Part shown: positions 10,177-40,135 of the stretch, piece by piece
Position numbering within the stretch: the first letter of the stretch is position 1
Layout of the letters: each line of letters starts with the position of its first letter
Assembly (NCBI GenBank): GCA_004195515.1
Contig: PSPR01000004.1
Location: 1-47,961, forward strand
DNA length: 47,961 bases
DNA from: Methanobacteriota archaeon
Lineage (GTDB): Archaea; Thermoplasmatota; Poseidoniia; Poseidoniales; Poseidoniaceae
Direction of reading: 5' to 3'
Notes under the pieces: generated by a model
The model's database searches: none
Told to the model about the DNA's origin: nothing
Seen by the model: only the letters and a program-made list of their open reading frames with translations
Position numbers and translations under genes: made by a program

Positions 10177-13100
10177 ATGACCACCGAAAACAGGGCCTGT
10201 GGCCCTGCAAATCCTGCGCCAAGAGCAGTCTTCTTGACCATGCTAATGCTACTGTCATCAATCGTCCCAATTTTGACAACCTCTGCCCAAGATGGGCCTC
10301 AAAATGGCAGTTGGGCCAAGGAGGGTTCTCACGATACCGGTTGGGTACAACTCGATGCGACAGGAGCAGATTCCATCAATGGAATTCCTGCGATGGTCGA
10401 TTGGACTATCGAGTTTGCCCCAGGAGCAACATTGGATAATTTGAGTTTTGAAATAATGGTCGATGGTGGCAATGGAATTTCAATTCAAGAACCACTTTTG
10501 GTTTCACCTGATACCGGTTTGACCTTGTTTGATTGGCGCGGAAATGGCTGGCTTGGTCAAACAGAAAGCTTCGATGGAAATAACCCTCATCAAGGCCGGC
10601 TTTCTCCAACTTCTGATGTTGGGGCTACATTCACTTTACCCGCTGGAACCGAGATTACAGATTTGGTTATCGAAGCCCTTGCACCAGCAGATCCTGTCGT
10701 TGCTCTGAAGCCAATCGATTTATCGATTCAAGATGCCGTTCCTCATCCGGTCGATGGCCGATTATACGCGGCTGTTGGTGATACTTTGGTAATGCTAGAT
10801 GCTAATTCAAATCCAAATATCATCGATATGGTTCGATTCGAAAATAGTGACGGAATCTATGATCTTCATATCGATGTATCAAATAACAGAATTTTGGTCC
10901 TAACCGTATCCGAAGGAATCCAAGCTGTTGACCTTTCGACCACTGAAATTCTAACACCCTTAGCTGCTGAACCAATGGGTGGCACTTTCTCCCAAACCAT
11001 TATCACCGCAAATGGCAATAATTATGCGATGAGCGAGAATGGACTTTGGATTCTCAATAGTGCTGGATCCGGTTGGACTCTCGAACAAGCGAGTAATACA
11101 ACCGACTGGCCGGTAGGCACCCCATGGAAAACTATCGAGCACAATGGCGTTCTCTATGTTTCACTTGTCGGTGGAGGAGTCGGGAGATATGATACTTCAA
11201 CCTCAACGACCCTTAGCCATTGGTCGACCGCCAATAACTTACATTCTGATTATATCAGTGACTTTGTAATCGCTGGCTCTTGGTTATTGATCTCCTCTTG
11301 GGATGCTGGAATCGCCCGCCATGATGTCAACGGAAATTTCTGGCTTGCTACATGGACGAGTTCTAATTGGCTTGCTTCAAATGTTGTTCAAGGTATGACA
11401 GTAGTTGCAAACCAGGTCGATATATTGGCTGGAGATGCCGTCCAATCCTACGATACTACATCCGGCTCATTTACTGCAAGAACCAACTTGGTAAGCCTTG
11501 GTCAAATCAACGATGGCGAGGATATTTTACTTTGGCCTGCTGGCGGTTCAAGGGCGCCAGCGACCGATCAAGTACTGGTCACGGATGGCCATGCGGTCTT
11601 TGGAATTCTAGAACCTGGAAATACTCCATTTTATGCTGGCGACCTCATTATTGGCAGCGGCCCTTCAAACGGGGATATGTCTGATGCATTGGAGATAAAT
11701 GGCATAGTTTATGTTGGAAGCGAAGAAGTTCTTGACCGATATTCGATAAGTCAATCTCGTTGGCTCGCACCGGTTGAAATAGGAGATATCATCACTCGTC
11801 TAGCTAGTTCTGGAACTGATATCATCGTCGCCACCGATGGCGGCGGTGTTCATGTCGTTGCGAACGGAACCATCATCGAAAGTTATGATGACACCGATGG
11901 TTTGCAAGCGAATCGAATCAAATCCATCGATGCACAAGGCGATCTCATCGCCTTGGTTCACTATAGTCATGGGATGGCGCTAATCAATCGTACAACCTCA
12001 ACCATAACCACCTATGCTCAAGGTGATGCTGCGCTTCAAACAAACGCACTCGAAGACATTGCACTCTTGGGCAATATTGCCTATATCGCAACCGCTGACG
12101 AAGGCTTAGCTCGTTACGATATCGCAAATGACACTTTTCTTGGATCGTGGCGCTCAACCGGTATTGACGGAGTAGGAGAAGCCCCTATTACCATTAGTGG
12201 AGATATCGTTTATCTTGGCCTACCTGGATATGGAGTCATCAGGAAAAATATAGTGACCGACCAAATCCTCGACCCTCTTAGAGCGGGTGCTAACGGCCGC
12301 GGATTGCCTTCTAGCCAAATCTATGCTCTCCATACCCTCGGAAATGGCGATGTATTGATCGGCACCAATAATGGGGCAAGGGTTTGGGATGGAAGCAGTT
12401 TTCACACGGTTAGTTCCGGAAATGGTTGGCCTCGCCCGACAACTTTCATGGACTTCGTCGACGACGGCACAAATTTCTGGGCTGCAACAAACGCTGGTGT
12501 TTGTAAATTCAGTATTTCATCTCGACAATTAGATGATTGTATTAATCAACAAGATGGGCTTGGAAATACTTACACCACATCAATCGACATGGATGGAACC
12601 GATATTTATGCTGCAACTTGGGCAAGTGGATTATCCATTATCGATACCACTAGTGATACGGTTACCGATAATTGGGAATCTGGCGGAACCACTAACCGCG
12701 CCTTGGTAGAGGTGATTGGTGATGTTGCTTATCTCGGACTTTACAATATCGGTATTGCACGATATGATTTAACCACAAATGAATGGCTGCCTATTTGGGA
12801 TGCTAGTTCAAGTGGTTTACTCCAAGGCGATGAGATTACAACAATGCATTTGGGCCGGTATGCTGACCAATTATGGATTGGAGGAGATTTTGGTTTCCAA
12901 GTTATCAACGTTTCAGCTGGGACCGAAGTAGTTCACATCTCTCAAGATAACTCGATGTACAGTGGATCCGATGATCCATACCAAATGGTCATCGCAGGCA
13001 ATACGGTTTACTATCACGGATTATATTATCAGGGCGATGAGATTCATCGAATCGACTTGGATAACCTGAGTGCAATGTCCTCCCTCGATGCAGGAGCACA

Positions 13101-16100
13101 ATTCGGTGTCGGTTCGTGGATGTATGGAATGTCGGCTGTTAACGGGGTTCTATATGCTGCAGTCGAACCATCTTGGAACCAAAATGGCCAAGGCGGAATC
13201 GCCACCTATAACTTGACCAACAAATCCTGGGGGCCAAATATCGACCCAACCGGCGAGGTAAATATAGTTCAATTATACACAGATAATTCCGGCAACCGCT
13301 GGATTTCGTGGGGCGAAGCATCGCTTGAACTCTATGATTCAAGCGGTATTCTTCAAGGTGAATGGGATTCCGATGATCTCGATTTACCTATTAGAGAAAT
13401 TCTCGAATACGATGGCGAAGTCTTGTTTGCAACCGAAGAAGGCGTCGCTCGTTACGATTCCAATAGTAGCCAATGGCTCTCGACATGGACACCAGGAAAT
13501 GGTTTAGATTCCTCGTTCGAAGATGTCATCTACGGAATGTGGACCGACGGCGCTGACCTTTGGGTCGGAAGCGCCCGCAGCAACGGCTGGCAAGTCAGGG
13601 CAGAGATTGGAGTTTTGGATAGTTCTGGTAATTGGACGGTATACTCCAATGGTGGAAATATCCCCGCTGGGTACCCGACTTCTTTCGTTGAATGTGCTGG
13701 AATAATTCACATTGCGATGAATAATAACTGGAATGGAGGAGTTGCGAGATTTGACATCGCAAATGATACTTGGCTCTCTGCTTTTACCCAAGGTAATAAT
13801 GGATTAGCCGATGATACCCCTGGCGCGGTCACCTGTGATTCTCAAGATATTCTCTATGTAGGATATTATGCTGATGACCAACCAATTTCTCGTTTCAATT
13901 ATAATACCGGCCATTGGATTGGCGATATCGATCAATCTTCCCATGGTATATCCTCGGACCGAGTCTATTGGGATAGCTTAGCGTGGGGTGGTGGTCGATT
14001 GATGATTGGCCACGGCGTCGGTTCAACCGGTGGTTCTGGAAACGGTGGTAGCGAAGGCGGATTTTCAACATTGACCGCGAGCGGAACCAGTGCTAGCCAA
14101 GCGAGCGTCCAAAAGGTTGGAGCTGCGGTTACAACTTGGGAATTCTCTGGCACAACTTGGCTTTACGGTCAAGCGGGTGGAGCTACTGGTTATTCTCACG
14201 TTGATGAAATAAGTCAATTGGGAATAAATACTGTCAATTCTTTACCGGGGTTGGTAAATGGCGAGATTCAAATGTTTGATGGAAATTCCACTCATATTTG
14301 GGCCGCGACCGGCAATGGAAATTCCGCCGGCGGCCTACTCGAGGGCACTTACTTGCCAAATGGAAGCATAGAATGGACTCGAGGTTGGAGCGCATATGGT
14401 GGCCAAATCGTCGATATCGAATTGGTCGGTGATATTCTTTACACATCGGTTCAAGGTGTTGGGATGATTTTGATCAATTTAACCTCTGGAGTCGCTGCAC
14501 GAGCTCAAAATGGTTTCCATAATTACCCAGACCAAATCGTTCGCTACGGTGACGATTTGGTCATTGGGCTAGAAGGAACATGGTCGACATCAGCGGGAGT
14601 TCAGATATGGAATACTACTCAAATGGGCTGGACTGGCGGTCGATTGCTTGCTGGTTTACCCTCAAATGTTGTAACCGGTGTCGAATTCACAACCGGTTAT
14701 ACTTACATCGCCACCTCAAGTGGTTTGGGAGTATTCAATTTGAGTTCAAACGATTGGGATAATCCTCTTACCACAATGGATGGTTTATCGTCAAATGTCA
14801 TCAACGATGTCAAAGTCGTCAACGGGAAACTGCTCCTAGCAACACCGATCGGACTCGATGTTATCGATTCCAATGGAATAACTACTCTGACCAGAGCCGA
14901 TGGACTGCTCGGAAATTCGATCGACCAAATTTTGGTCGTTGCTAACGATATTTACCTGAGCCACGATGGTTTGGGTTCGGAAAGACCTGGATTTAGCATT
15001 GGAGATGGGTCGAATCAAACCATTTCATTCATCGCTCATCAAATCGACCAATTACCTTCCAATACCGTTCTTGCTTTAGCCTCGGATTATCGAGGATTAT
15101 TCATCGCTACCGATGAGAGTCCAATGATTTTCTGGAATCGAAGTTCCAACCAACATGAGATATTCTTGCCTTGGAATTATTTCACCGGCTGGCCAGTTCA
15201 AAATATGCGTTCGAACGCTGACCGATTGGTCGCGGTAGGAGCCAATGGAATTGCGGCAATCGATTGGGCAACCCCTTCGAATTTCGCATCGTTCAATACT
15301 TGGGCTCAAGGCATTACCGGGGCGACTGGAGCAAGCTTTGTCGGCGCAAATATTTGGATTTCAACCGATGATGGCTTGAGAGGATTCTTCCATCCAAGCC
15401 ATGAGGAAAGAGAATCTTCCTCAATGCGTAGAGCTCATCCTCTCAGCATCGGCTTCAACAATGCATTTACCGATGTAACCAATATGACTCATCCTGGCAT
15501 GGCCATCGTATTGGTCGATGCTGCGAATGCGGTGACGCTATCAGACGATGGTACTACTGGGCCGCACGGAGTATTGATGCAAACCGTTCCTCTAACACTA
15601 TCCTCTCCTGTATCCGGAGCTGCGACTTGGGTTCAACTGAATTCATTATTGTGGAATTCAACCCTCGATATTTCAAACGCGAGCAATCTGATGACAAATA
15701 TGCAATATATCATCGATAATGGACGAATAATCAATGGAACAAATTACATCACTTTGAGATTACAATCTCCAAGCAACGGAAGTTTGTGGGTTAAATTAAA
15801 TTATGATTGGCACCGTTCTGAAACCCCTATTCAAGCGATCTCATTGTGGGATAGACCTGATGATGGCGGACAAACTTTGGTAGCAAATTGGACACAGGTG
15901 AACGATGATGATTTCGCATCGTACGTCGTTTATCTTAACGAAGGTCCTTGGGCAACTCAACCGAATGTCGTCGATCTCCAACCATTCCAGCCCGATGCCG
16001 CAATCGGTATCTCCTCAAGATTACAGACTGAAATCTCCACTATAGGCGGTCAGCCACTTCAAGATGGCGTCGATTATTACGCGGTCGTCGTGGTAAAATA

Positions 16101-18405
16101 TACCGATGGACGCTATGGAACTCCGAGCGCACAAATTGGCCCTGCTTCTTCTTCGGATGAAATTCCGGCACCACCGCTATGGGCGAGTGGCGCTCCTCAT
16201 GATGGTGGAGAAGATGGCGACCTAGCGGTCGAATGGGCTCGATGTACTGCTTTGGATCTTGCGAGCACTCGCATCTATGCATCTACGACACCTATTACCG
16301 ATGTACTAGGTATGAGCGTTCATACCTCGGTCCCTCCTCAAGATGGTAATTCAACCGTAATTGGTCTGGCTGCTGGTCAACCTCATTGGCTTGGATTCAC
16401 ATGTGTTGACCAGAGTGGCCAAGAAGACCTAGTCAATGCCACAATTATCGGCCCTGTGGTCCCAACCGGCGGTTTGAACGACGGTGTTGCACCACCTAAG
16501 TTAGCAGACATTTGGGCAGAGGATGTACCTGAAGATGACGGTGGACGAGTCCGGATGGGCTGGACTCCTTCGGTTGCTGACGATTGTGCATTCGTTACGG
16601 TTTACATGCGGCCTGTCGGTGATGGCGATGACATTCCGGCTTCGGTCGATGACTTTGCGCAAGCGGTTATAGTCCCCGATTGTGAGACAAATATGACCAT
16701 CATCGATGCGATTGGAGATTTCCCGCTCATCGATGGACAACCCTATTTCATAGGCGCGGTCGCTTCCGATAAATGGCTAAATTCCGACACCGGTGATGTT
16801 ACAATTCTCCAAGTCACCCCTTATGTCAACAATATTGGTGGCTCATCAATACCAGAAAGAATCGGCGAATTGAGCGCATGGGATCATCCTGGTGACGATG
16901 GTACTGCAATCGATGTCGCGTGGGTTCCATCCGAAGTCGATGATTTCGACTATTATGTAATATGGACTTCGGCTCATCCGATAGATGACCTTAGCAACCT
17001 AGCTCCAGTCGCGGGAACAGATCCTGCGCTTTGCGGTTGTATCAAAATGAATAAGCAATGGGTTGATGAGGCAAAATCACCGATTGAAATTTTGGTCAAC
17101 ACCGCACTGTATGGTGGAGATAACCTATTGGCTGCAAGCCCTGCACAAGTGATGCCGAATGTGGAATTATTTGTCGCTGTCACCGTTCACGACATCAAAG
17201 GAAATGTTCACCTTGATGGATTGACCACGGTTTCGGTTATACCTATCGATAACTTAGCAGACCAAGAAGCACCGGATAAATTGACCGATTTATATTTGGT
17301 CGATAGGCCGATGGACGATGGTACTGCGGTCTTACTGGACTTTGGCTTATCCGATGCTAGTGATATCGATCATTACGAGATATATGCAGCTGCATATTCT
17401 TTCGATTCGGTCGGTCAAGGTGGTAATGGCCCTGCAACTCCAATCGAGACACTCGGAAGAAGTCCAAGTTTACCCCTTTCGATCGACTTGCTGGCTCACG
17501 ACACACCTGTCGTACCAAATATGCAAGTAACCGTCGCGGTTGTTGCTGTCGACAGTTCTGGCAATGCCCACATGGCTAATTTGGTTACCGCAAGTGCTAT
17601 CTCGGTAGATGATGGCTTCCAAGATCCAGGTTCTCACCTTCCCGATATTGATGGGATTTCATTGAGTTGGATCGGGAATTCGATCCTGGTAGAGTGGGAC
17701 CACTCAAATGATGCATCGGTTCGATCTTATGTCGTTTTCATCTCAGATGAAGAATTCATCGAAACCGATGATGCAACGATGGTCGGCGAGGTTTCGGCAA
17801 TCAATTCACTTCTCATTACGCCTAACGCTTTCACCGACTTGGATAATACAACCGAATGGTGGGTTGGTGTTGCTGCTCAAGACGAAATCATTCATCGAGA
17901 AATGATCGATTCAATCCAGGTTTTACCACCTTCTTCAGTCAAAGGTGATGGTGATGAAACCGGTAAAGAAACCCCTTCGGACTTCAGTCAATTATTAGGC
18001 TCTGATAATATGATGCTTATCGGGTTAGCTGTGGTTGCAATATTGCTATTATTATTGGTTATTCGCTCTCGTGGCGGTAGACCAACAAAAAACAAAGATT
18101 TCGATATGCAAGAAGCGACTTGGGGAATTCAAGCCAGAGATGGCTGGGACAAAACCGATAGTTTTACTGCACCTACAGTAGCTGCTCCACCTTCGGTTCA
18201 ACCGGCTGTACAACAAGATATCTTCTCTGCAGCACAACGAATTGAGAATCCGATGCAAAACCAACAACAAGCCTTTGCACCTTCTCAACAAAACTTACAA
18301 GCACCTCAACAAATCTTGCAACCTGAACCGGTTCAACCCTTTAAACAGCCACAACAACCAGCAAAGGGTGCAATCGACACCTCCTTCTTGGACGACCTGT
18401 TGTGA
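10177..18405 (+). CDS. Giant secreted beta-propeller and FN3 surface protein with C-terminal membrane anchor
   Basis: This 2742-residue protein begins with a Sec-type signal peptide (hydrophobic core about 16-36, cleavage near TTSAQ). A beta-rich domain follows (about 45-165). Then come some 1,600 residues of propeller-like repeats resembling the two-component-regulator propeller (Reg_prop) type: units such as GLPSSQIYALHTLGNGDVLIGT and GLPSNVVTGVEFTTGYTYIAT recur, often with Arg-Tyr-Asp and Trp-rich turns. From about 1886 to 2585 there are six FN3-like units, most opening with an acidic D-x-P-x-D-D-G turn. One membrane helix (about 2613-2632) is followed by RSRGGR and a cytosolic Gln/Pro-rich tail of about 110 residues ending FLDDLL. 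The shape suggests a cell-surface adhesin or binding protein with an inside tail. It is followed 7 nt later by pabC, an odd partner. The ligand is unknown. Confidence 0.85.
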   Translation: MTTENRACGPANPAPRAVFLTMLMLLSSIVPILTTSAQDGPQNGSWAKEGSHDTGWVQLDATGADSINGIPAMVDWTIEFAPGATLDNLSFEIMVDGGNGISIQEPLLVSPDTGLTLFDWRGNGWLGQTESFDGNNPHQGRLSPTSDVGATFTLPAGTEITDLVIEALAPADPVVALKPIDLSIQDAVPHPVDGRLYAAVGDTLVMLDANSNPNIIDMVRFENSDGIYDLHIDVSNNRILVLTVSEGIQAVDLSTTEILTPLAAEPMGGTFSQTIITANGNNYAMSENGLWILNSAGSGWTLEQASNTTDWPVGTPWKTIEHNGVLYVSLVGGGVGRYDTSTSTTLSHWSTANNLHSDYISDFVIAGSWLLISSWDAGIARHDVNGNFWLATWTSSNWLASNVVQGMTVVANQVDILAGDAVQSYDTTSGSFTARTNLVSLGQINDGEDILLWPAGGSRAPATDQVLVTDGHAVFGILEPGNTPFYAGDLIIGSGPSNGDMSDALEINGIVYVGSEEVLDRYSISQSRWLAPVEIGDIITRLASSGTDIIVATDGGGVHVVANGTIIESYDDTDGLQANRIKSIDAQGDLIALVHYSHGMALINRTTSTITTYAQGDAALQTNALEDIALLGNIAYIATADEGLARYDIANDTFLGSWRSTGIDGVGEAPITISGDIVYLGLPGYGVIRKNIVTDQILDPLRAGANGRGLPSSQIYALHTLGNGDVLIGTNNGARVWDGSSFHTVSSGNGWPRPTTFMDFVDDGTNFWAATNAGVCKFSISSRQLDDCINQQDGLGNTYTTSIDMDGTDIYAATWASGLSIIDTTSDTVTDNWESGGTTNRALVEVIGDVAYLGLYNIGIARYDLTTNEWLPIWDASSSGLLQGDEITTMHLGRYADQLWIGGDFGFQVINVSAGTEVVHISQDNSMYSGSDDPYQMVIAGNTVYYHGLYYQGDEIHRIDLDNLSAMSSLDAGAQFGVGSWMYGMSAVNGVLYAAVEPSWNQNGQGGIATYNLTNKSWGPNIDPTGEVNIVQLYTDNSGNRWISWGEASLELYDSSGILQGEWDSDDLDLPIREILEYDGEVLFATEEGVARYDSNSSQWLSTWTPGNGLDSSFEDVIYGMWTDGADLWVGSARSNGWQVRAEIGVLDSSGNWTVYSNGGNIPAGYPTSFVECAGIIHIAMNNNWNGGVARFDIANDTWLSAFTQGNNGLADDTPGAVTCDSQDILYVGYYADDQPISRFNYNTGHWIGDIDQSSHGISSDRVYWDSLAWGGGRLMIGHGVGSTGGSGNGGSEGGFSTLTASGTSASQASVQKVGAAVTTWEFSGTTWLYGQAGGATGYSHVDEISQLGINTVNSLPGLVNGEIQMFDGNSTHIWAATGNGNSAGGLLEGTYLPNGSIEWTRGWSAYGGQIVDIELVGDILYTSVQGVGMILINLTSGVAARAQNGFHNYPDQIVRYGDDLVIGLEGTWSTSAGVQIWNTTQMGWTGGRLLAGLPSNVVTGVEFTTGYTYIATSSGLGVFNLSSNDWDNPLTTMDGLSSNVINDVKVVNGKLLLATPIGLDVIDSNGITTLTRADGLLGNSIDQILVVANDIYLSHDGLGSERPGFSIGDGSNQTISFIAHQIDQLPSNTVLALASDYRGLFIATDESPMIFWNRSSNQHEIFLPWNYFTGWPVQNMRSNADRLVAVGANGIAAIDWATPSNFASFNTWAQGITGATGASFVGANIWISTDDGLRGFFHPSHEERESSSMRRAHPLSIGFNNAFTDVTNMTHPGMAIVLVDAANAVTLSDDGTTGPHGVLMQTVPLTLSSPVSGAATWVQLNSLLWNSTLDISNASNLMTNMQYIIDNGRIINGTNYITLRLQSPSNGSLWVKLNYDWHRSETPIQAISLWDRPDDGGQTLVANWTQVNDDDFASYVVYLNEGPWATQPNVVDLQPFQPDAAIGISSRLQTEISTIGGQPLQDGVDYYAVVVVKYTDGRYGTPSAQIGPASSSDEIPAPPLWASGAPHDGGEDGDLAVEWARCTALDLASTRIYASTTPITDVLGMSVHTSVPPQDGNSTVIGLAAGQPHWLGFTCVDQSGQEDLVNATIIGPVVPTGGLNDGVAPPKLADIWAEDVPEDDGGRVRMGWTPSVADDCAFVTVYMRPVGDGDDIPASVDDFAQAVIVPDCETNMTIIDAIGDFPLIDGQPYFIGAVASDKWLNSDTGDVTILQVTPYVNNIGGSSIPERIGELSAWDHPGDDGTAIDVAWVPSEVDDFDYYVIWTSAHPIDDLSNLAPVAGTDPALCGCIKMNKQWVDEAKSPIEILVNTALYGGDNLLAASPAQVMPNVELFVAVTVHDIKGNVHLDGLTTVSVIPIDNLADQEAPDKLTDLYLVDRPMDDGTAVLLDFGLSDASDIDHYEIYAAAYSFDSVGQGGNGPATPIETLGRSPSLPLSIDLLAHDTPVVPNMQVTVAVVAVDSSGNAHMANLVTASAISVDDGFQDPGSHLPDIDGISLSWIGNSILVEWDHSNDASVRSYVVFISDEEFIETDDATMVGEVSAINSLLITPNAFTDLDNTTEWWVGVAAQDEIIHREMIDSIQVLPPSSVKGDGDETGKETPSDFSQLLGSDNMMLIGLAVVAILLLLLVIRSRGGRPTKNKDFDMQEATWGIQARDGWDKTDSFTAPTVAAPPSVQPAVQQDIFSAAQRIENPMQNQQQAFAPSQQNLQAPQQILQPEPVQPFKQPQQPAKGAIDTSFLDDLL
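15841..17930 (+). repeat. Six FN3-like repeats in the giant surface protein
   Basis: Six units start near 15844, 16194, 16525, 16882, 17302 and 17670. The first five share an acidic turn (RPDDGG, PHDGGEDG, VPEDDGG, HPGDDG, RPMDDG), then a strand with a hydrophobic-x-W/F, an acidic S/D-x-x-D-D segment and a Y-x-V/I-Y strand. The sixth lacks the acidic turn. Spacing is about 110-140 residues. The repeats are diverged at DNA level, so this is an old protein repeat. Confidence 0.6.
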
Positions 18406-31582: not shown

Positions 31583-34500
31583 TCAACCGAGCAAATGACC
31601 TACTGGGCCGCATAATTTGATCGAACCAGAGAAATAGGGGCATTTTTCGCAAGTTTTTGCCGCTTCAACGGCTAGCCTGTTCGGTGATTTCGAATAATCC
31701 CCAGCCGCGGCTATTTCGCCCATCCATCCAAGTAATTCCTCGAGGTTAAGGAGAGATTCTTGGAATTCTTCATCGCTCATTCTAATCATTCTGCCAGAGG
31801 CTGCAACCAAGATGGCAGGAGGGAGGATTTTTCTCCTTTCTCCCTCAGGTTTTTGGTTTTCCTCAAGAATTAATCCAAGACTGTAAAGGGCGAGTTGTAA
31901 TTTATGTTGTTCAATGATTTCGTATTCGGGTTTAGTGCTTGCGAATGGCGAATCCACATCATCAACCACTTGAATATCATTGCCTTCTTCGGCATTATTC
32001 GGCCTGAATGCGTGCAAACAGCCACTGGTTTTTGCATCGACCACTTGTAACCATCCTTGGCCTGATTCGTCCCTCAATGCCACAACCAAGTCTGCTCGGC
32101 CATCGAAGGTCGTGGTGATTTGGTCGACCTTGGCAACCATTTCATCACCGCGTGGTGTCCATTGAGTCCTCGCCAAACCCGATAGGTGGTCAACCGCGAT
32201 ATAGAATGGCAATTCGGTACGCAAGCCCTCGACTTTGAATCCATCAAATGTCTGGCCTTGAGATAATTTGCCAAGTGACCCTTCTCTGGTCAATTTTGCC
32301 AGATGCATCAATCGTAATTTTGTCCGCTCAAACACCTCTGCATCGGTAATGCTAGATTGTGCCATCACCTCATCGACGGTTTTGGAATCGGTCAATCGGT
32401 CAGCCTGGGTTCGAGTCCAAGTTTGGTCTAAATTTGTACTATTCGACCCTGGATTGGCCAAACCGATTTCGACCAATCGATGGAATAGGCTCCCAAATTC
32501 GGTAGCGGAAGGCCAATATTGTTCGGAGGGTGACTCCGAAGATAATTGGAATTTTTCGGCTCGCCAATTTAGTTTTGAACCAAGCCAATAACGGCGGCGG
32601 CAACCAAATGCTACATCGAGGCTATGAGAGGCTAGTGGGACAGTGGTTCGCAATTGTTTGATATTTTGAACGCGGGTGGTTTCCGAGGGCCTATTCGATA
32701 AATCCAAACGATTCTGCCATCTTACCAATGGCGATTGGGCTACCCTTGAGTCAAAACAATCTGGATGATGGAATATTGTGACGCCGTTGACACACCCCTC
32801 CGGAAGTTGTCCGTTGACGGCTAAGTCCCCTGGGTTCAAAACGAGTGTTGCACCGGTTTGATCCAAACCGCCATTCGACCAAGCACAACCGCTATTGCCG
32901 GCTTCGATACTCGAATGAGCAAGACCGTCCAAAAACATTTGACCCATGTTTTGTCTTCCGTCTGACCGCTCGATAACGATGGAACCAGATTGGTCTATTG
33001 CCGCTCCTTTCGAGGGGCTGCCGACGATAATCAATCTGTCCCTTGCTCTGGTTAAAGCGACATAAAACTGACGACGTCTCTCTGCTCTTTGCTGGCCGTC
33101 GTCCATCAGATTTGCCAAGGTCCAAAGTCCACTCTGAGGTTTGGCAAAGCCACGCCAAGGATGGATGCGGCCGGCAATGATATCCGGGGTGACCAGGACA
33201 TTTGCTGATGATGAAAATGCCGCATCACGGGTGCCGGTCGCAAAAATGTCGTAAGCGATTATCACCGGTGCTTCCAATCCCTTGGCCCCGTGAACCGTCA
33301 ACACTTGTACCGCGCCGCCAGCAGCTTCGGACCGGCTTTTCGGACCGTCGTTATCGAGCTCTGCCAAGCGGCGGAGCCGGGCGAGAATCAATGCTGCATC
33401 ACCGCCGACCATCTTGCTGACCTGCTGGTAAATCGCCAGCCAATTTTCCACGTCTTGCCGGTCACCTTCTCGCGGGTAAGAATATAGTAAATCCGAATGG
33501 TCAATAGCACATCTCAATGCGCCGAGCACATCGCCATTGCTAGCCAAATGATGGATTCTCTCGATTAGGTTCGCGACTTTTTTAGTCGGTGCGACCTCGA
33601 TTAATGCTTTTAGTTGGTCAACTTCTGAATTGCCCAAATGTAGAATAAGGCTCTCATCATCCATTCCCATGATCACGCTACGCCCTAAGGCTAAAGCCGC
33701 TGATTTTTCACCGGGTGAACAACAAGCCCAAAGCAGAGCCATCAAAGGTTGAATGACTGGCCTTTGCATCAGAATTCCCTGCTTATCTGCCATGGCTGGA
33801 ATTCCATGGGCTTCCAATGTTGATATTATCAGTGGAATTCGCCCTCTCGAAGATACCAAAATCATGATGTCTGAAGGTCTGACCAAACCGGCTTCCTCAC
33901 TAAGGTCTACCCACGAGCCGTCCTCGGATTGGATGACTTGTGCCGTGCTGCCATCGAGCAGAGCTCCGATACGTTTTGCCATCATATCAGCTGCTAATTC
34001 ACGATTTGATGAACCTCGGTGCAAGAATGGGTCTATCGGTTTTGACGGGTCCATCGGTCTAGGTTCGTCACCGGTTCGGGCTGGTAAAATCCATTCTAGA
34101 GCTGCGGTCCTAACCTGTTCTCTACCGGCTGCCAAATCTTGGGCTTCGGCATGCCAAGGCCCAGGTAAAAGATGGTGGCGAGAATCGAATGTGTCCTCGA
34201 ATAGATAATTCATGGTGGTCAATAATCGCGGTAAAGTTCGATAATTGGTCTTCATCTCGATATGCCCTTCTCGGCGTTTTGCTAGTGATTGTTCGCCGAT
34301 AGTTCTGTTATCATCGTCGAGTAAAAACGAGATCCACTCCCCTCGTTGGGAATCTTCATCTTGTAATTTGCTCCCTTGAACAAATTTGAGCGAGCCTTTG
34401 GTCTTGCCAGGAATTGGTCTTGGGTCGAGAGCTGCGTCGGCCTGGCGCAAGTCATCGGTTCTCGCTTCCATCAATGCTTCTTCTCGATTCACTTGGCGAA

Positions 34501-36373
34501 TCAAACCGACCGCTCGCTTCATCACCGTAACCTCGGCTTGACGGAATCGGTAGATCGATTGTTTCATGTCGCCGACGATGCAGATGGTCGGGTCCCATGG
34601 TCCAGCCGGTGGAGCCGGCTCATCTCGTTCGAGTTTCCTTCGGCCCCAAAGTCGAGCCAGCAACCTGAAGTGTTGTGGATTTGTATCCTGATATTCATCG
34701 ATAATGAATGCTCGATAACAACGCCTTAAGTCCCGTAAAATATCGATTCTTCGCATCAGGTCGATGTGAACCTTCTCATCGCCCTGGCTCGCGGTAATCG
34801 CCCGATGCAAATGGCCGTCATCCCAAGGATCGGTCATCGAATCGAGGGCGTCGATAACCCTAGTCGGATACCATGAACGACAAACGACAGGGCAGCGGGC
34901 AAGCAGTAAATCCTCGGCCAATCGGTGCATGTCATCGTGATCACGAACACCTTCTTGGGATTTCAATCGGCTCAAAATCGCCTGAATTCCATCGTGTACT
35001 ACGAAGAGATCTTCCATCACTTCAAGCTCTAAATCGGTGGTCAATCGCATCTGTGAACTCGGCGGAATTTGAGGCAAATCCCGTTCGAGCCGAGGCGGAT
35101 GAGCGACTTGGCCCGGGACTGGTTCCGGGTCATCGAATAATGGGTTGAGCAAGAAGGATGCTTGACCGAGTTTTCTCAACAGAAGACCTCTGGAACAATG
35201 GAGCATTTCTCGAATCGAAGAAGCGTGTTGTTCTGCATTTACTGAAGCGATGTTTTTGCTATCGGTCGTCATCGCGGTATTGTCTTTTTTCGACAAAACT
35301 CCGCTCGGCCATTTTTCTCCGTTCGGAGGTTTGGCTCTGAACAAGGATTTACAATTTATATCACCAAGATTTCTAGCGGTAGTAATGGCATGGCTAACCA
35401 ACCAAATCCATTGTAATCTCGACATTGTATCATCGGCAGGAATAAGAGATAATCGTTGAACAAATCTAAATCTGGTCCAACCGGTCTCTGCATCAGCACC
35501 GGTGATGAAATGGCCGCCACCGTCGAGCCAAGCATCGGTCCAACCGCATACATATTCTCTGAATTCGGTGTACCAATCATCGATGAAGTCTTCGACCGGT
35601 CCGAGGAATAAGGAATCGAGCATGTCGACGGTAGCACCATCAACGGAATTCAATGAAATTCTGCGGCTTGCCTCCTCGACGAAAAGCGACTTTTTCAGCA
35701 TTCCACGCACTACCGTTGCCGATGCACTTTGACCACCAAGGCGGATGGAAAGTCGATCTCTTGCAAGCAAAAATGCTTCGATATCGCCGCTCATTCCAGC
35801 CTCGATTGCTTGGACGCCACGCTGTAATCGCCAACCGGTGCGGATCGCTTCTTCGCGTAGGATGATCGCCCCGTCGTCGTCTATTTGTTCGCTTGCAGGG
35901 TCATCGCAAACCAGGCCCATATACGGAGAGACCAGAGCCGAAAAGAACGAGTCAATCGTCGAAATTGGTGCATCGTCTATCAAGGAAAGAAGCATCGAGA
36001 CGTCACCTTGGTCCACATCTTCAGGGCCGGGGCTTTGGGCTCGAAGCGAAGCGATCAAGCGCCTGATCCGGCCTTTTAGTTCGGCTGCTGCTTTACGGGT
36101 AAATGTGATTGCAACGGTTTCGGTCGGCAATAATCCCTGCCAATCTTTCAGAGCGGTTCTCTCCTTTGCAGGACAGCGAATCGCGCCCATTCCTTTTAGA
36201 GGAATTCGAGGTGCTGCGGGTAAGATTCTAGTTGCTCGCTGGTCTTTGCTTAGCAAATGTTGCAGATAGCGATGAGCCATCACCGTGGTTTTGCCAGTCC
36301 CGGCACCAGCATCTAAGGCGATATGGCGATTGATGTCCAATCCGAGGCTTTGAGAATGGTTGAATGGGATCAT
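31583..36373 (-). CDS. addA: AddA-like UvrD-family helicase with C-terminal iron-sulfur nuclease domain
   Basis: This subunit of about 1596 residues resembles AddA of double-strand-break end-processing helicase-nucleases. Superfamily 1A motifs are in order: Walker A GAGTGKTT near residue 22, the AITFTRKAAAELKGRIRR motif Ia, Walker B IDEYQDTNPQ, GDMKQSIYRFRQA (motif III), MKTNYRT (motif IV), VLTVHGAKGLEAP (motif V) and FYVALTRARDRLII (motif VI). The C-terminal PD-(D/E)xK nuclease shows GSLFHRLVEIG, VVDAKTSG and LQLALYSLGL. It also has FGCRRRYWLG, with TCEKCPYFSGSIKLC at the end, a four-cysteine iron-sulfur signature not usual in bacterial AddA. The ATG at 36373 shares its A with the last base of the AddB-like stop codon (TGATG). 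Together they would degrade or resect DNA ends for recombination. Confidence 0.85.
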   Translation of the reverse strand: MIPFNHSQSLGLDINRHIALDAGAGTGKTTVMAHRYLQHLLSKDQRATRILPAAPRIPLKGMGAIRCPAKERTALKDWQGLLPTETVAITFTRKAAAELKGRIRRLIASLRAQSPGPEDVDQGDVSMLLSLIDDAPISTIDSFFSALVSPYMGLVCDDPASEQIDDDGAIILREEAIRTGWRLQRGVQAIEAGMSGDIEAFLLARDRLSIRLGGQSASATVVRGMLKKSLFVEEASRRISLNSVDGATVDMLDSLFLGPVEDFIDDWYTEFREYVCGWTDAWLDGGGHFITGADAETGWTRFRFVQRLSLIPADDTMSRLQWIWLVSHAITTARNLGDINCKSLFRAKPPNGEKWPSGVLSKKDNTAMTTDSKNIASVNAEQHASSIREMLHCSRGLLLRKLGQASFLLNPLFDDPEPVPGQVAHPPRLERDLPQIPPSSQMRLTTDLELEVMEDLFVVHDGIQAILSRLKSQEGVRDHDDMHRLAEDLLLARCPVVCRSWYPTRVIDALDSMTDPWDDGHLHRAITASQGDEKVHIDLMRRIDILRDLRRCYRAFIIDEYQDTNPQHFRLLARLWGRRKLERDEPAPPAGPWDPTICIVGDMKQSIYRFRQAEVTVMKRAVGLIRQVNREEALMEARTDDLRQADAALDPRPIPGKTKGSLKFVQGSKLQDEDSQRGEWISFLLDDDNRTIGEQSLAKRREGHIEMKTNYRTLPRLLTTMNYLFEDTFDSRHHLLPGPWHAEAQDLAAGREQVRTAALEWILPARTGDEPRPMDPSKPIDPFLHRGSSNRELAADMMAKRIGALLDGSTAQVIQSEDGSWVDLSEEAGLVRPSDIMILVSSRGRIPLIISTLEAHGIPAMADKQGILMQRPVIQPLMALLWACCSPGEKSAALALGRSVIMGMDDESLILHLGNSEVDQLKALIEVAPTKKVANLIERIHHLASNGDVLGALRCAIDHSDLLYSYPREGDRQDVENWLAIYQQVSKMVGGDAALILARLRRLAELDNDGPKSRSEAAGGAVQVLTVHGAKGLEAPVIIAYDIFATGTRDAAFSSSANVLVTPDIIAGRIHPWRGFAKPQSGLWTLANLMDDGQQRAERRRQFYVALTRARDRLIIVGSPSKGAAIDQSGSIVIERSDGRQNMGQMFLDGLAHSSIEAGNSGCAWSNGGLDQTGATLVLNPGDLAVNGQLPEGCVNGVTIFHHPDCFDSRVAQSPLVRWQNRLDLSNRPSETTRVQNIKQLRTTVPLASHSLDVAFGCRRRYWLGSKLNWRAEKFQLSSESPSEQYWPSATEFGSLFHRLVEIGLANPGSNSTNLDQTWTRTQADRLTDSKTVDEVMAQSSITDAEVFERTKLRLMHLAKLTREGSLGKLSQGQTFDGFKVEGLRTELPFYIAVDHLSGLARTQWTPRGDEMVAKVDQITTTFDGRADLVVALRDESGQGWLQVVDAKTSGCLHAFRPNNAEEGNDIQVVDDVDSPFASTKPEYEIIEQHKLQLALYSLGLILEENQKPEGERRKILPPAILVAASGRMIRMSDEEFQESLLNLEELLGWMGEIAAAGDYSKSPNRLAVEAAKTCEKCPYFSGSIKLCGPVGHLLG

Positions 36374-39300
36374 CACCAACCACCTCGCTTAGCGCTCGGG
36401 CAAGATTCGATAATTGGACAATATGAACAGGATTTAGACGGTTCGGGGTGGATATTTCCGGCCGCTGCATTGGCGATTACCCTTTGAGCGGTGGTGATTC
36501 TCTCTCTCATCCAAGCTCTAAACGCATTGGATTTTGCCGGTAAACTCTCCCCGGGTTTACGGTAGTGCTCATGGGTTTGATCACTAGGGATGCCAACTGC
36601 TAATTCTTGGCAAATCTCAAAGAATTCCGGGTCGATTTCAACGAATGGCTGGGTCAGGTTTCCAACTTGAGTTGCACCCACGCCGACCACTCGGTCCCCG
36701 GGGTTGGCTATCTCCCATGCTCTGGCATATAGTGCCAATTGTAATTCTTGGAATATTCCCTTGAGATGGCGTTGGTCCGATCCATCATCACCCGGTCCGT
36801 CGAGCGATTTGATATCTCGAATAATCACCAACCTTTTGGCTTTTATCGGGTCTCCTAAATCGAAATCGATTGGAATGATTTCGGAAGCATCTTGGTCGAT
36901 AAAATGCTCTCCGAGCATCAATTGGTCGACCCGATCGATTCTTCCTCTCAATTTGAAGGATTCAACCAATATGAAATCGTTTTCAGCGGTTTTTAATTGC
37001 CATTCGGTTGCTATCGGTGCGACATCGTGCAATGACATATCGGCCAATAACATCCGGCCGAGCCGGCCGCCGATTGGAATCGGAGCATTGGTTTCGAGCC
37101 ATTCTATCCAAATTTCCGGCGATACTCCGATCAAATCTCGGCAGCGATGGGCCGAAATACCATCGGCACGGCGCATCCAAGTCGCCTTTGCGGCTAAGGT
37201 ATCGAGCACAACTATCCACGCATCTTCAAGATTTGAAATCGGGCCTAAATGCAATGGCTGAGCCGCTTGTTGGGTACCATCTTGGTCCAAACCATGGGCT
37301 CGCAATATGGCTTCTTCGACCAAGTGAACGATGTCGCCACGGGTGACGGCAGCCAAATCTTCATCGATTCTTTCAGCCCGGCCAAGATACATGTGGCGGT
37401 CGTACCAAGCCCGGCGTGGACATTCTAACCAGGCTTGCAATCTGCCTTGGGACCAAATGTCTGGCAAGTTCAAAGCGATAGGAGAACGGCCGGTCATTCG
37501 GTCGAGTTGTTCGATCCTCGTGCTCGGTGGAGATATCGGTCGAGGATCGACCGGCAGCGATAATTTTGATTTTCCTTTAACCCCGAGGTGAGGCCACTGT
37601 TTTGCAGATCTACCGTCGGCTGGTTTTTTCTTGGTCGGCAAGAGTTTGAGATCTGCGGTTTGAATCAAGAAATTCGCATCTTCAAAGCCAAAAATCTCGT
37701 CCTTTGCTAAATCTTCACCGTCGGCACGCCTCGATAATTGATCGGCCAATAAATCGATTTCTGCCGCCGGAAACAAGCCCTTGATATTGAGTGGGGGGCT
37801 AGCAGGAATTCTTCCTTCAATGGTCGCAAGCCCTGCTCTTTGACGATGGTCTCGACCGAGAATTCCACTTCGGTGGCCACGAACTATTCCACCGCTAACC
37901 TCCATCGCATTGACCCGATGAACCAATCTATGTTCGTCGGTGGAAATTTTGAGAATTTTCCAAGCCCGGTCTACGCTATCTGGATGCCAAGAGTCGGGCT
38001 TGAGGAAGTTTGGCGCTGAATCGATATTTTCAACTCCGCCGTAGCGTTTCAATCGACTGAACCACTCGTCTAAGGCGCCGGATAATTCCTTGCCCTCTTC
38101 TAATGAAGGGTCGATTATTATAATGGAATCTGCACAATTTAGCAAGTGGCGCAAATGATGTCGGGCTTGACGCAATTGTTGGTCGGGCCGGTGAAGTCCG
38201 AGATTCATTCTGCTCGCTTCGTCCAACCATGGAATTGAAGCGGGTCGTAACGACCAGGTTTCGGCATCTATGCCGGCTAAGATTAACAATTCAGTTTCAC
38301 AGCCTTGGGCTTGTTCTGGCGAGAGAATTCTAATGTTTTGGTCGCTCACCCGAAGCGGTGGGATTTTGGTATTTTTACTCAAGGTTTTGAGAAATTCATA
38401 GAAATCATCGGCTTCAAAATCTATTTCGTTCTTCATTTGGTCGAATGCTGCTACCAAATATTGCAATCCGGAAATACAATTATCGGCTAAAATATCCCGG
38501 CCGGCCAATATAGCCCAATCGATTTGCTTCAGCATCGAATCAAACCATTCTACCGAATTTTCTGCAAATTCGGGCATCGGTAAAACCTCACCAGAAGAAC
38601 AACCGATGATGCGTTCTGGAATCGCTTCTCGGTCATGAGCCGGCAAGATCGGCATCATCCAATTTGCTAAGCACGCTAACCACCATTGGCATTCTTCCAA
38701 TTCCTTACTCGCCCGATTCGGCTCAACACCAGCCCGGGGTTTTGCATCACAAAGAGTCGATAACCAACGCCGCAAAGAACCACGCCCTCCAAGTAAATGG
38801 AATCCTCTAGCGATATCGGCTAAGACGCCGATGTGTAAACGAGGAGCCCACTCCTGATGGATAGGGTGAGTCTGGTCGAATATAGGCCAAGACATCGGTA
38901 ATGCAATTTGTTCTTTCATAGCGCTGAGGCGGGATAATGCCCATGCTTCTTCGCCTCGACAAAGTTCGACCAATGATAATAATCGGTTAACTGATGGACT
39001 ATCTAGTGTAGTTGTCGACGGTTTTGCCAACTTGATCCCCATCGCCTCCAAGAATGGTTCCAAGCGCAATGTCAAGGCGTCAGGATCGCCGCTGATTATG
39101 ATGATATCCTCCTCGGTTCGAGTCAATAAATCGGCTAAACCCAAATGGGTATGTGCGGCTAATTCAACCATCAGATGGTGGATGGTCCTGCCACGGTTTT
39201 GGCCGATTTCACTATCCCAATCAATATCTCCTGGCGCGGCCCAAACCGAATGGTTTGGCACCCAATCCGGCAAATCATCGCGCGATCTTACCGAACTGAT

Positions 39301-40032
39301 ATCCTCGATATATTCGCCGTGAAAACCAAGCCGGTGAGATCCCGGATTGACCAATTGATGAATCGGGCAAAGCCTCGAAACCTCTCGTAAAATCTCGATT
39401 TCTACCTCACTCAAACCACAAGCGTGATCGAGCATAATTATTCCATCGACATCGAGCAAGGTAAACGGGGGTTGATCCCAAGTTTTGAGTTCGAGCCAAA
39501 CACATTTCTCAAGTCGAGCCGGATGGGTTGCTTGCAATTCTTTCTCCAGTCCTCGTAATACCTTATCGCATTCTTGAGCGCCTGGATCGTCTGGCCAATC
39601 CCATGGGTTGGCCAATGAAATCAATTCACGATGGAGCGATAATAGCCTTCGACTTCGGGATCGGCTCCATCGATGTTGAGGGTTCGGTTGCAATAACGGG
39701 AAGCCATATTCTTTGGCCGCTTCGGCTAAAGCACGATGGCTTTTTTCGAATAGTGGGCCATCGTTTTCAAGCACTGCTGGCAAGCGAAGATCAAGATGTA
39801 GAATTCCGACCAATCTCGCCATCGTCAGATGGTGAGTAGTATCGATAATGCCCCCGCCTTTTTGTTTTAACAAATTCGAAATGGCCTGTTTTCTTGCGGC
39901 TTCAGTCGGATGAATCACCATCAATTTACGACCGGACAATAACGAATCTACCAACCAATCGGGCATCGCCCGACCAGCTGGAACAGCCTCCATGCTGAGG
40001 CCGATAGAATTGGTTTGGGTTTCAGTCATCAT
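36373..40032 (-). CDS. addB: AddB-like helicase-nuclease partner with iron-sulfur PD-(D/E)xK domain
   Basis: This subunit of about 1219 residues is the probable AddB partner. The N-terminus resembles the AddB helicase-like fold, but where a Walker A would stand it reads SGRKLMVIHPTEAARKQ without GKT, so ATPase activity is probably lost. The central AGIDAETWSLRPASIPWLDE...LGLHRPDQQLRQARHHL region matches alphaproteobacterial-type AddB. The C-terminal nuclease domain has ECPRRAWYDRHMYLGR, GDIVHLVEEAIL, IIRDIKSL and FQELQLALYARAW, then the CSYCPIIESC cysteines that complete a 4Fe-4S site with the earlier Cys. ATG 40032 (or 40029) is preferred over a GTG at 40083. It is translated just before the AddA-like subunit and is divergent from the thioredoxin-like gene. 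Confidence 0.8.
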   Translation of the reverse strand: MMTETQTNSIGLSMEAVPAGRAMPDWLVDSLLSGRKLMVIHPTEAARKQAISNLLKQKGGGIIDTTHHLTMARLVGILHLDLRLPAVLENDGPLFEKSHRALAEAAKEYGFPLLQPNPQHRWSRSRSRRLLSLHRELISLANPWDWPDDPGAQECDKVLRGLEKELQATHPARLEKCVWLELKTWDQPPFTLLDVDGIIMLDHACGLSEVEIEILREVSRLCPIHQLVNPGSHRLGFHGEYIEDISSVRSRDDLPDWVPNHSVWAAPGDIDWDSEIGQNRGRTIHHLMVELAAHTHLGLADLLTRTEEDIIIISGDPDALTLRLEPFLEAMGIKLAKPSTTTLDSPSVNRLLSLVELCRGEEAWALSRLSAMKEQIALPMSWPIFDQTHPIHQEWAPRLHIGVLADIARGFHLLGGRGSLRRWLSTLCDAKPRAGVEPNRASKELEECQWWLACLANWMMPILPAHDREAIPERIIGCSSGEVLPMPEFAENSVEWFDSMLKQIDWAILAGRDILADNCISGLQYLVAAFDQMKNEIDFEADDFYEFLKTLSKNTKIPPLRVSDQNIRILSPEQAQGCETELLILAGIDAETWSLRPASIPWLDEASRMNLGLHRPDQQLRQARHHLRHLLNCADSIIIIDPSLEEGKELSGALDEWFSRLKRYGGVENIDSAPNFLKPDSWHPDSVDRAWKILKISTDEHRLVHRVNAMEVSGGIVRGHRSGILGRDHRQRAGLATIEGRIPASPPLNIKGLFPAAEIDLLADQLSRRADGEDLAKDEIFGFEDANFLIQTADLKLLPTKKKPADGRSAKQWPHLGVKGKSKLSLPVDPRPISPPSTRIEQLDRMTGRSPIALNLPDIWSQGRLQAWLECPRRAWYDRHMYLGRAERIDEDLAAVTRGDIVHLVEEAILRAHGLDQDGTQQAAQPLHLGPISNLEDAWIVVLDTLAAKATWMRRADGISAHRCRDLIGVSPEIWIEWLETNAPIPIGGRLGRMLLADMSLHDVAPIATEWQLKTAENDFILVESFKLRGRIDRVDQLMLGEHFIDQDASEIIPIDFDLGDPIKAKRLVIIRDIKSLDGPGDDGSDQRHLKGIFQELQLALYARAWEIANPGDRVVGVGATQVGNLTQPFVEIDPEFFEICQELAVGIPSDQTHEHYRKPGESLPAKSNAFRAWMRERITTAQRVIANAAAGNIHPEPSKSCSYCPIIESCPSAKRGGW

Positions 40033-40135
40033 CACAATCGCCGCCCAACGACTCGACTCTGCGGCAGGGGTTCTTGAACCCACTTATGACTTATCGGCCA
40101 CAACCATTGAAATCAAAGTTAATCCAGCCAACACC

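Follow-up and report, generated by a model that had tools for sequence, protein, structure and literature searches.

A divergent AddAB of Marine Group II archaea with a predicted iron-staple nuclease in each subunit

Two adjoining genes of an archaeon in the order Poseidoniales (Marine Group II) encode what is a genuine new variant of the helicase-nuclease AddAB. Our main reading, to which we give a probability of about 0.7, is that of a divergent AddAB with an iron-staple nuclease in each subunit, which would give the complex two clusters and not one, and which replaces Mre11-Rad50 plus HerA-NurA in the order. The term iron staple stands for the cysteine arrangement found in the AddB, Cas4, Dna2 and Bad nucleases (PMC7430649, PMC5704561). 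Mre11-Rad50 was described as 'universally conserved' when DNA repair in archaea was reviewed in 2020 (PMC7690668), and AddAB goes unmentioned in a review from 2021 on how archaea repair double-strand breaks (PMC8708640). We found no paper that treats AddAB together with Marine Group II, nor any description of a two-site AddAB in a search conducted largely outside subscription journals. In the present case, a whole order is apparently devoid of Mre11-Rad50 and appears to make use of a bacterial-type AddAB.

The gene pair and its domains

The window, meaning the whole stretch of 47,961 nucleotides that was analysed, is one contig (C72) of a genome of 81 contigs and 1.92 Mb. Two open reading frames adjoin and overlap on its minus strand between 31583 and 40083, with AddB first and AddA second (Table 1). 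An alternative AddA start is the ATG two codons in, at 36373, which would share one base with the AddB stop; the conserved AddB protein begins near an ATG at 40032, the end that had been given in the sequence-only reading. Domain matches, motifs and the overlap of the genes bear out the assignment made there to an AddAB-type pair. The best NCBIfam matches of AddA are recB and addA_Gpos, both below cut-off, and the equivalog cut-offs for AddA and AddB are far off (119 against 708 bits and 27 against 487 bits, respectively), these being naming thresholds that carry no biochemical definition. The bacterial pair of Thermoflavimicrobium, discussed below, likewise falls under them. No RecD-type gene was seen among the identified neighbours of the pair in the window. 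Elsewhere in the window, an open frame of 2742 aa (10177-18405, plus strand) has no Pfam match at E 1e-5.

The motor of AddA is of the SF1A (UvrD) type and complete, with its helicase motifs intact. Walker A is absent from AddB in 47 of 47 sequences. Both subunits end in a RecB-family nuclease, with the catalytic H, D, D, K, Q and Y of AddA kept in all 112 relatives and the nuclease residues of AddB conserved among its 47 sequences. When the modelled nuclease domains were compared with the PDB by Foldseek, the top matches for AddA were AdnA and AddB, followed by AddA and a Cas4-family protein, the margin over AddA being small; for AddB, five AddB chains came first and then AdnA. A profile-profile alignment pairs the two nuclease domains with one another, their first cysteines in register. 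Run against the sequences of the PDB, an AddA nuclease profile gave no useful match.

Table 1. Positions in the window of the two genes, their domains and the predicted cluster ligands
Feature	Position	Strand	Remarks
AddA-like helicase-nuclease	31583..36379	-	1598 aa, TTG start; UvrD-helicase E 4e-30, PDDEXK_1 E 8.7e-8
AddA Walker A GAGTGKT, residues 25-31	36287..36307	-	G-K-T invariant in all relatives covering it
AddA nuclease domain region at the C terminus (residues 1190-1598)	31586..32812	-	AlphaFold2 pLDDT 91, pTM 0.84
AddA Cys1260 in FGCRRRYWLG, predicted first cluster ligand	32600..32602	-	relatives' alignment
AddA Cys1577, Cys1580, Cys1590 (CX2CX9C), predicted ligands, TCEKCPYFSGSIKLC	31610..31651	-	relatives' alignment
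AddB-like helicase-like/nuclease subunit	36373..40083	-	1236 aa from GTG; PDDEXK_1 E 2.6e-15, addB_alphas E 1e-6
AddB nuclease domain region at the C terminus (residues 862-1236)	36376..37500	-	pLDDT 87, pTM 0.87
AddB Cys888 in WLECPRR, predicted ligand	37420..37422	-	47/47
AddB Cys1219, Cys1222, Cys1228 in CSYCPIIESC (CX2CX5C), predicted ligands	36400..36429	-	47/47

Four cysteines around each nuclease

A four-cysteine nuclease signature had been reported for both subunits from the sequence of this one locus, and it holds up among the relatives. In AddB the four cysteines are invariant. In AddA, whose tail motif is longer than that of AddB, they flank the nuclease core and are kept as a unit: when the two sites are combined, 101 of 112 proteins have four cysteines, none has three, four have two, two have one and five have none. 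Taken column by column, conservation runs from 71 to 93%, and in several lineages lost cysteines are replaced close by or the whole set decays. Besides the standard C + CX2CX9C, the layouts C + CXCX2C, C + CX5CX2C and CX2C + CX2C occur. Where Cys1260 differs, in four phylogenetically independent pairs, the tail cysteines change in the same way in all, n=4 being too small for significance. A subclade of genus g2 (L258-L261) appears to have been caught in mid-decay, with a single cysteine remaining at each AddA site.

This pattern, together with the unchanged catalytic residues, is explained by a metal site, and by analogy with AddB, Cas4, Dna2 and Bad the metal is likely to be iron-sulfur. The metal, the strand assignment and the role in resection are what we infer for this complex, in which AddA would act as the sole 3'-to-5' motor and as one nuclease, and AddB, lacking Walker A, as a motor-dead scaffold bearing the other. 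In each nuclease, a cysteine ahead of the catalytic core and another three behind it would bind a single Fe-S cluster and fasten the domain. As AddA unwinds the DNA, its own nuclease would receive the 3' strand and that of AddB the 5' strand, and the trimming of breaks would provide RadA with 3' tails. Within the order, AddAB would probably take over from Mre11-Rad50 plus HerA-NurA. In the 11 of 112 AddA proteins without the full cysteine set, the nuclease core is retained, so the second cluster appears to be dispensable in some lineages. A bolder version, which we hold tentatively and at slightly less than even odds, is that a whole order of abundant marine archaea swapped Mre11-Rad50 and HerA-NurA, supposed to be universal, for a two-cluster AddAB in which the second cluster guides or gates the 3' strand, and that several lineages later dropped this cluster and kept the nuclease. 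If true, such losses would amount to a natural experiment on the function of this cluster. Lineages with four, rearranged or zero AddA cysteines offer ready material on the role of a second cluster in a dual nuclease.

Judged by sequence, four cysteines that bind zinc would be indistinguishable from an iron-sulfur site, and the AddA cysteines could in principle hold a structural zinc, which would leave the Fe-S cluster to AddB and make the pair a functionally ordinary AddAB. The freedom of the AddA layouts, looser than the rigid CX2CX5C of AddB, speaks for zinc, as does the loss of the full site in those 11 proteins. We nevertheless consider a zinc site unlikely, since the four cysteines sit around the nuclease core as they do in the iron-staple arrangement and the closest structural neighbours of the AddA nuclease model, AdnA and AddB, are both Fe-S-bearing subunits. 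AdnAB is known for a single cluster, which is carried by AdnA. That of AddB has likewise been described (PMC7430649). The idea that the AddA cysteines are a matter of chance or lineage-specific, with no single site, can draw on the 71% conservation of Cys1590 when it is taken alone, and is rejected by the count by site, in which three cysteines never occur (n=112) and replacements arise nearby; we give it next to no credence.

Relation to known helicase-nucleases

The enzyme of Bacillus subtilis (PDB 3u44, 4cej) is close in design, with addB next to addA, a single UvrD-type motor, carried by AddA, a pair of RecB-family nucleases and a four-cysteine cluster in AddB. The RecB-family nuclease with four cysteines that marks AddB is present here as well. 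The archaeal pair differs in the four cysteines that the AddA nuclease also has, in the absence of Walker A from AddB, in the length of AddA (about 1600 aa as compared to 1232) and in its host, an archaeon. Mycobacterial AdnAB (PDB 6ppr, 9np6) resembles it in having two nuclease-bearing subunits, with AdnA as the leading structural match of the AddA nuclease; however, both UvrD motors are intact in AdnAB and a single one is found here. In contrast to RecBCD, the nuclease residues of AddB are conserved, so there is no nuclease-dead partner of the RecC type. Finally, UvrD-Cas4 fusions and the iron-staple nucleases Cas4, Dna2 and Bad share the nuclease with a cysteine-core-cysteine order and are often joined to SF1 helicases (PMC5704561, PMC7430649), but these are single-chain or stand-alone proteins, whereas AddA is paired with AddB.

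End resection in Poseidoniales

In most archaea, the job presumed for AddAB, the making of 3' tails at breaks, falls to Mre11-Rad50 and HerA-NurA, which are unrelated proteins and on which archaea had been taken to depend. The sequence-only reading had set the pair against this machinery, and neither a clear Mre11-Rad50 nor NurA was found in the order. A Rad50 hook over cut-off occurs in 0 of 146 genomes of the class, with a model that is imperfect in that the real Rad50 of a third family in the class also scores under its cut-off. When Rad50-type ATPases were searched for in 13 genomes, the long hits begin like SMC where they were read; Rad50 was rejected as a candidate among the AAA_23 hits because that of the window's own genome tests as SMC and the others read share its start. 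For Mre11 there are weak hits in the order, mostly frames of 500-600 aa that may be the DNA polymerase D small subunit. Three members of the order (G103, G114, G131) have a short SbcD/Mre11-like phosphoesterase in frames of 232-386 aa that was unseen in its other genomes. HerA-like ATPases are weak in the order (E about 1e-5) and mainly from one family, and NurA was found in a single genome of the class, which lies outside the order. AddA is missing from lineage g22 of this class, which carries both Mre11-Rad50 and HerA-NurA. Genomes of g23, including G003 and G005 in the third family, showed no AddA, NurA or Rad50 hook over cut-off. Within the class, the order shares the absence of Mre11-Rad50 with some of the third family.

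Across the phylum, NurA occurs in 0 of 82 members of the order versus 65 of 211 other genomes. Outside the order, the 16 genomes with a clear AddA and the 65 with NurA do not overlap, where 4.9 shared genomes would be expected (P 0.002, uncorrected for kinship). From this near-exclusion it is likely that AddAB replaces HerA-NurA in the order, and it also makes replacement testable. No significant exclusion was seen between the Rad50 hook and AddA. In our view, AddAB is probably the principal enzyme of end resection in these archaea. The window's genome also encodes three stand-alone Cas4-like PD-(D/E)XK nucleases (L001:1177-2358, L002:832-2604, L003:1489-2763), the last of which scores slightly under the NCBI Cas4 cut-off, and such nucleases could share the work of end resection with AddAB.

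The intact active sites of both nucleases, together with the lack of evidence for Chi, might instead suggest an enzyme that chiefly degrades viral or other foreign DNA and is not a housekeeping resection enzyme. UvrD-Cas4 fusions have been linked to defence (PMC5704561), and in PADLOC AddA matches GajB of the UvrD type as well as RT-associated helicases, as would be expected of any UvrD-type motor. Yet AddAB is found in nearly all members of the order, its identified neighbours are metabolic and transport genes with no defence genes among them, and the searches for alternative resection machinery in the order found none. A mainly anti-viral role therefore seems less probable still than a zinc site.

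Occurrence and ancestry

The survey of the class took in 146 genomes, most of those surveyed being incomplete MAGs, and detected AddA in 121. All 121 belong to two families of the order, where 125 genomes were sampled, and none was found in the 21 other genomes of the class, of which those listed belong to the third family, presumably Marine Group III. AddB is at the same loci wherever the flanking sequence was covered. As AddAB is core across the order, bacterial contamination of the contig is ruled out, and the archaeal context proposed from the window stands.

The two-site variant is wider than first thought. The sequence-only reading had described it for this archaeon, where it is present, but the scope was too narrow: outside the order both subunits are cysteine-bearing at three further Thermoplasmatota loci (L132, L128, L139), and Thermoflavimicrobium, a bacterium, has a four-cysteine AddA with a four-cysteine AddB next door. 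This AddA is one of 4 four-cysteine proteins among 49 of AddA length in a wide genome scan. Taken together with the Thermoplasmatota loci, the scan indicates that AddAB with two such sites is uncommon and recurrent, and that it has become the standard form in Poseidoniales.

An ancient acquisition from bacteria had also been proposed, and here the evidence is divided. In the AddA tree a long stem leads to a single clade of the Marine Group II sequences, whose position near proteobacterial AddA is weak (support 86). A single archaeal AddA clade is not rejected by the AU test (p-AU 0.257), and it is possible, though somewhat doubtful, that one acquisition in archaea gave rise both to the Marine Group II pair and to the AddAB of other Thermoplasmatota; the AddA cysteines would then be ancestral, and their absence elsewhere the result of loss. 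The three other Thermoplasmatota pairs with a four-cysteine AddA favour such a history. Against it stand the position of the clade in the free tree, closer to proteobacterial AddA, and the absence of the four cysteines from most other Thermoplasmatota AddA. A single acquisition would be compatible with our preferred reading of the enzyme as a two-cluster resection AddAB. In the same tree, members of the phylum to which the window belongs cluster with the locus of a named Thermoplasmata archaeon, which identifies that phylum as Thermoplasmatota. Two AddA-like proteins of Ignavibacteria (L143, L148), with no AddB-like frame seen directly upstream, have tails of the form CX2CX8C.
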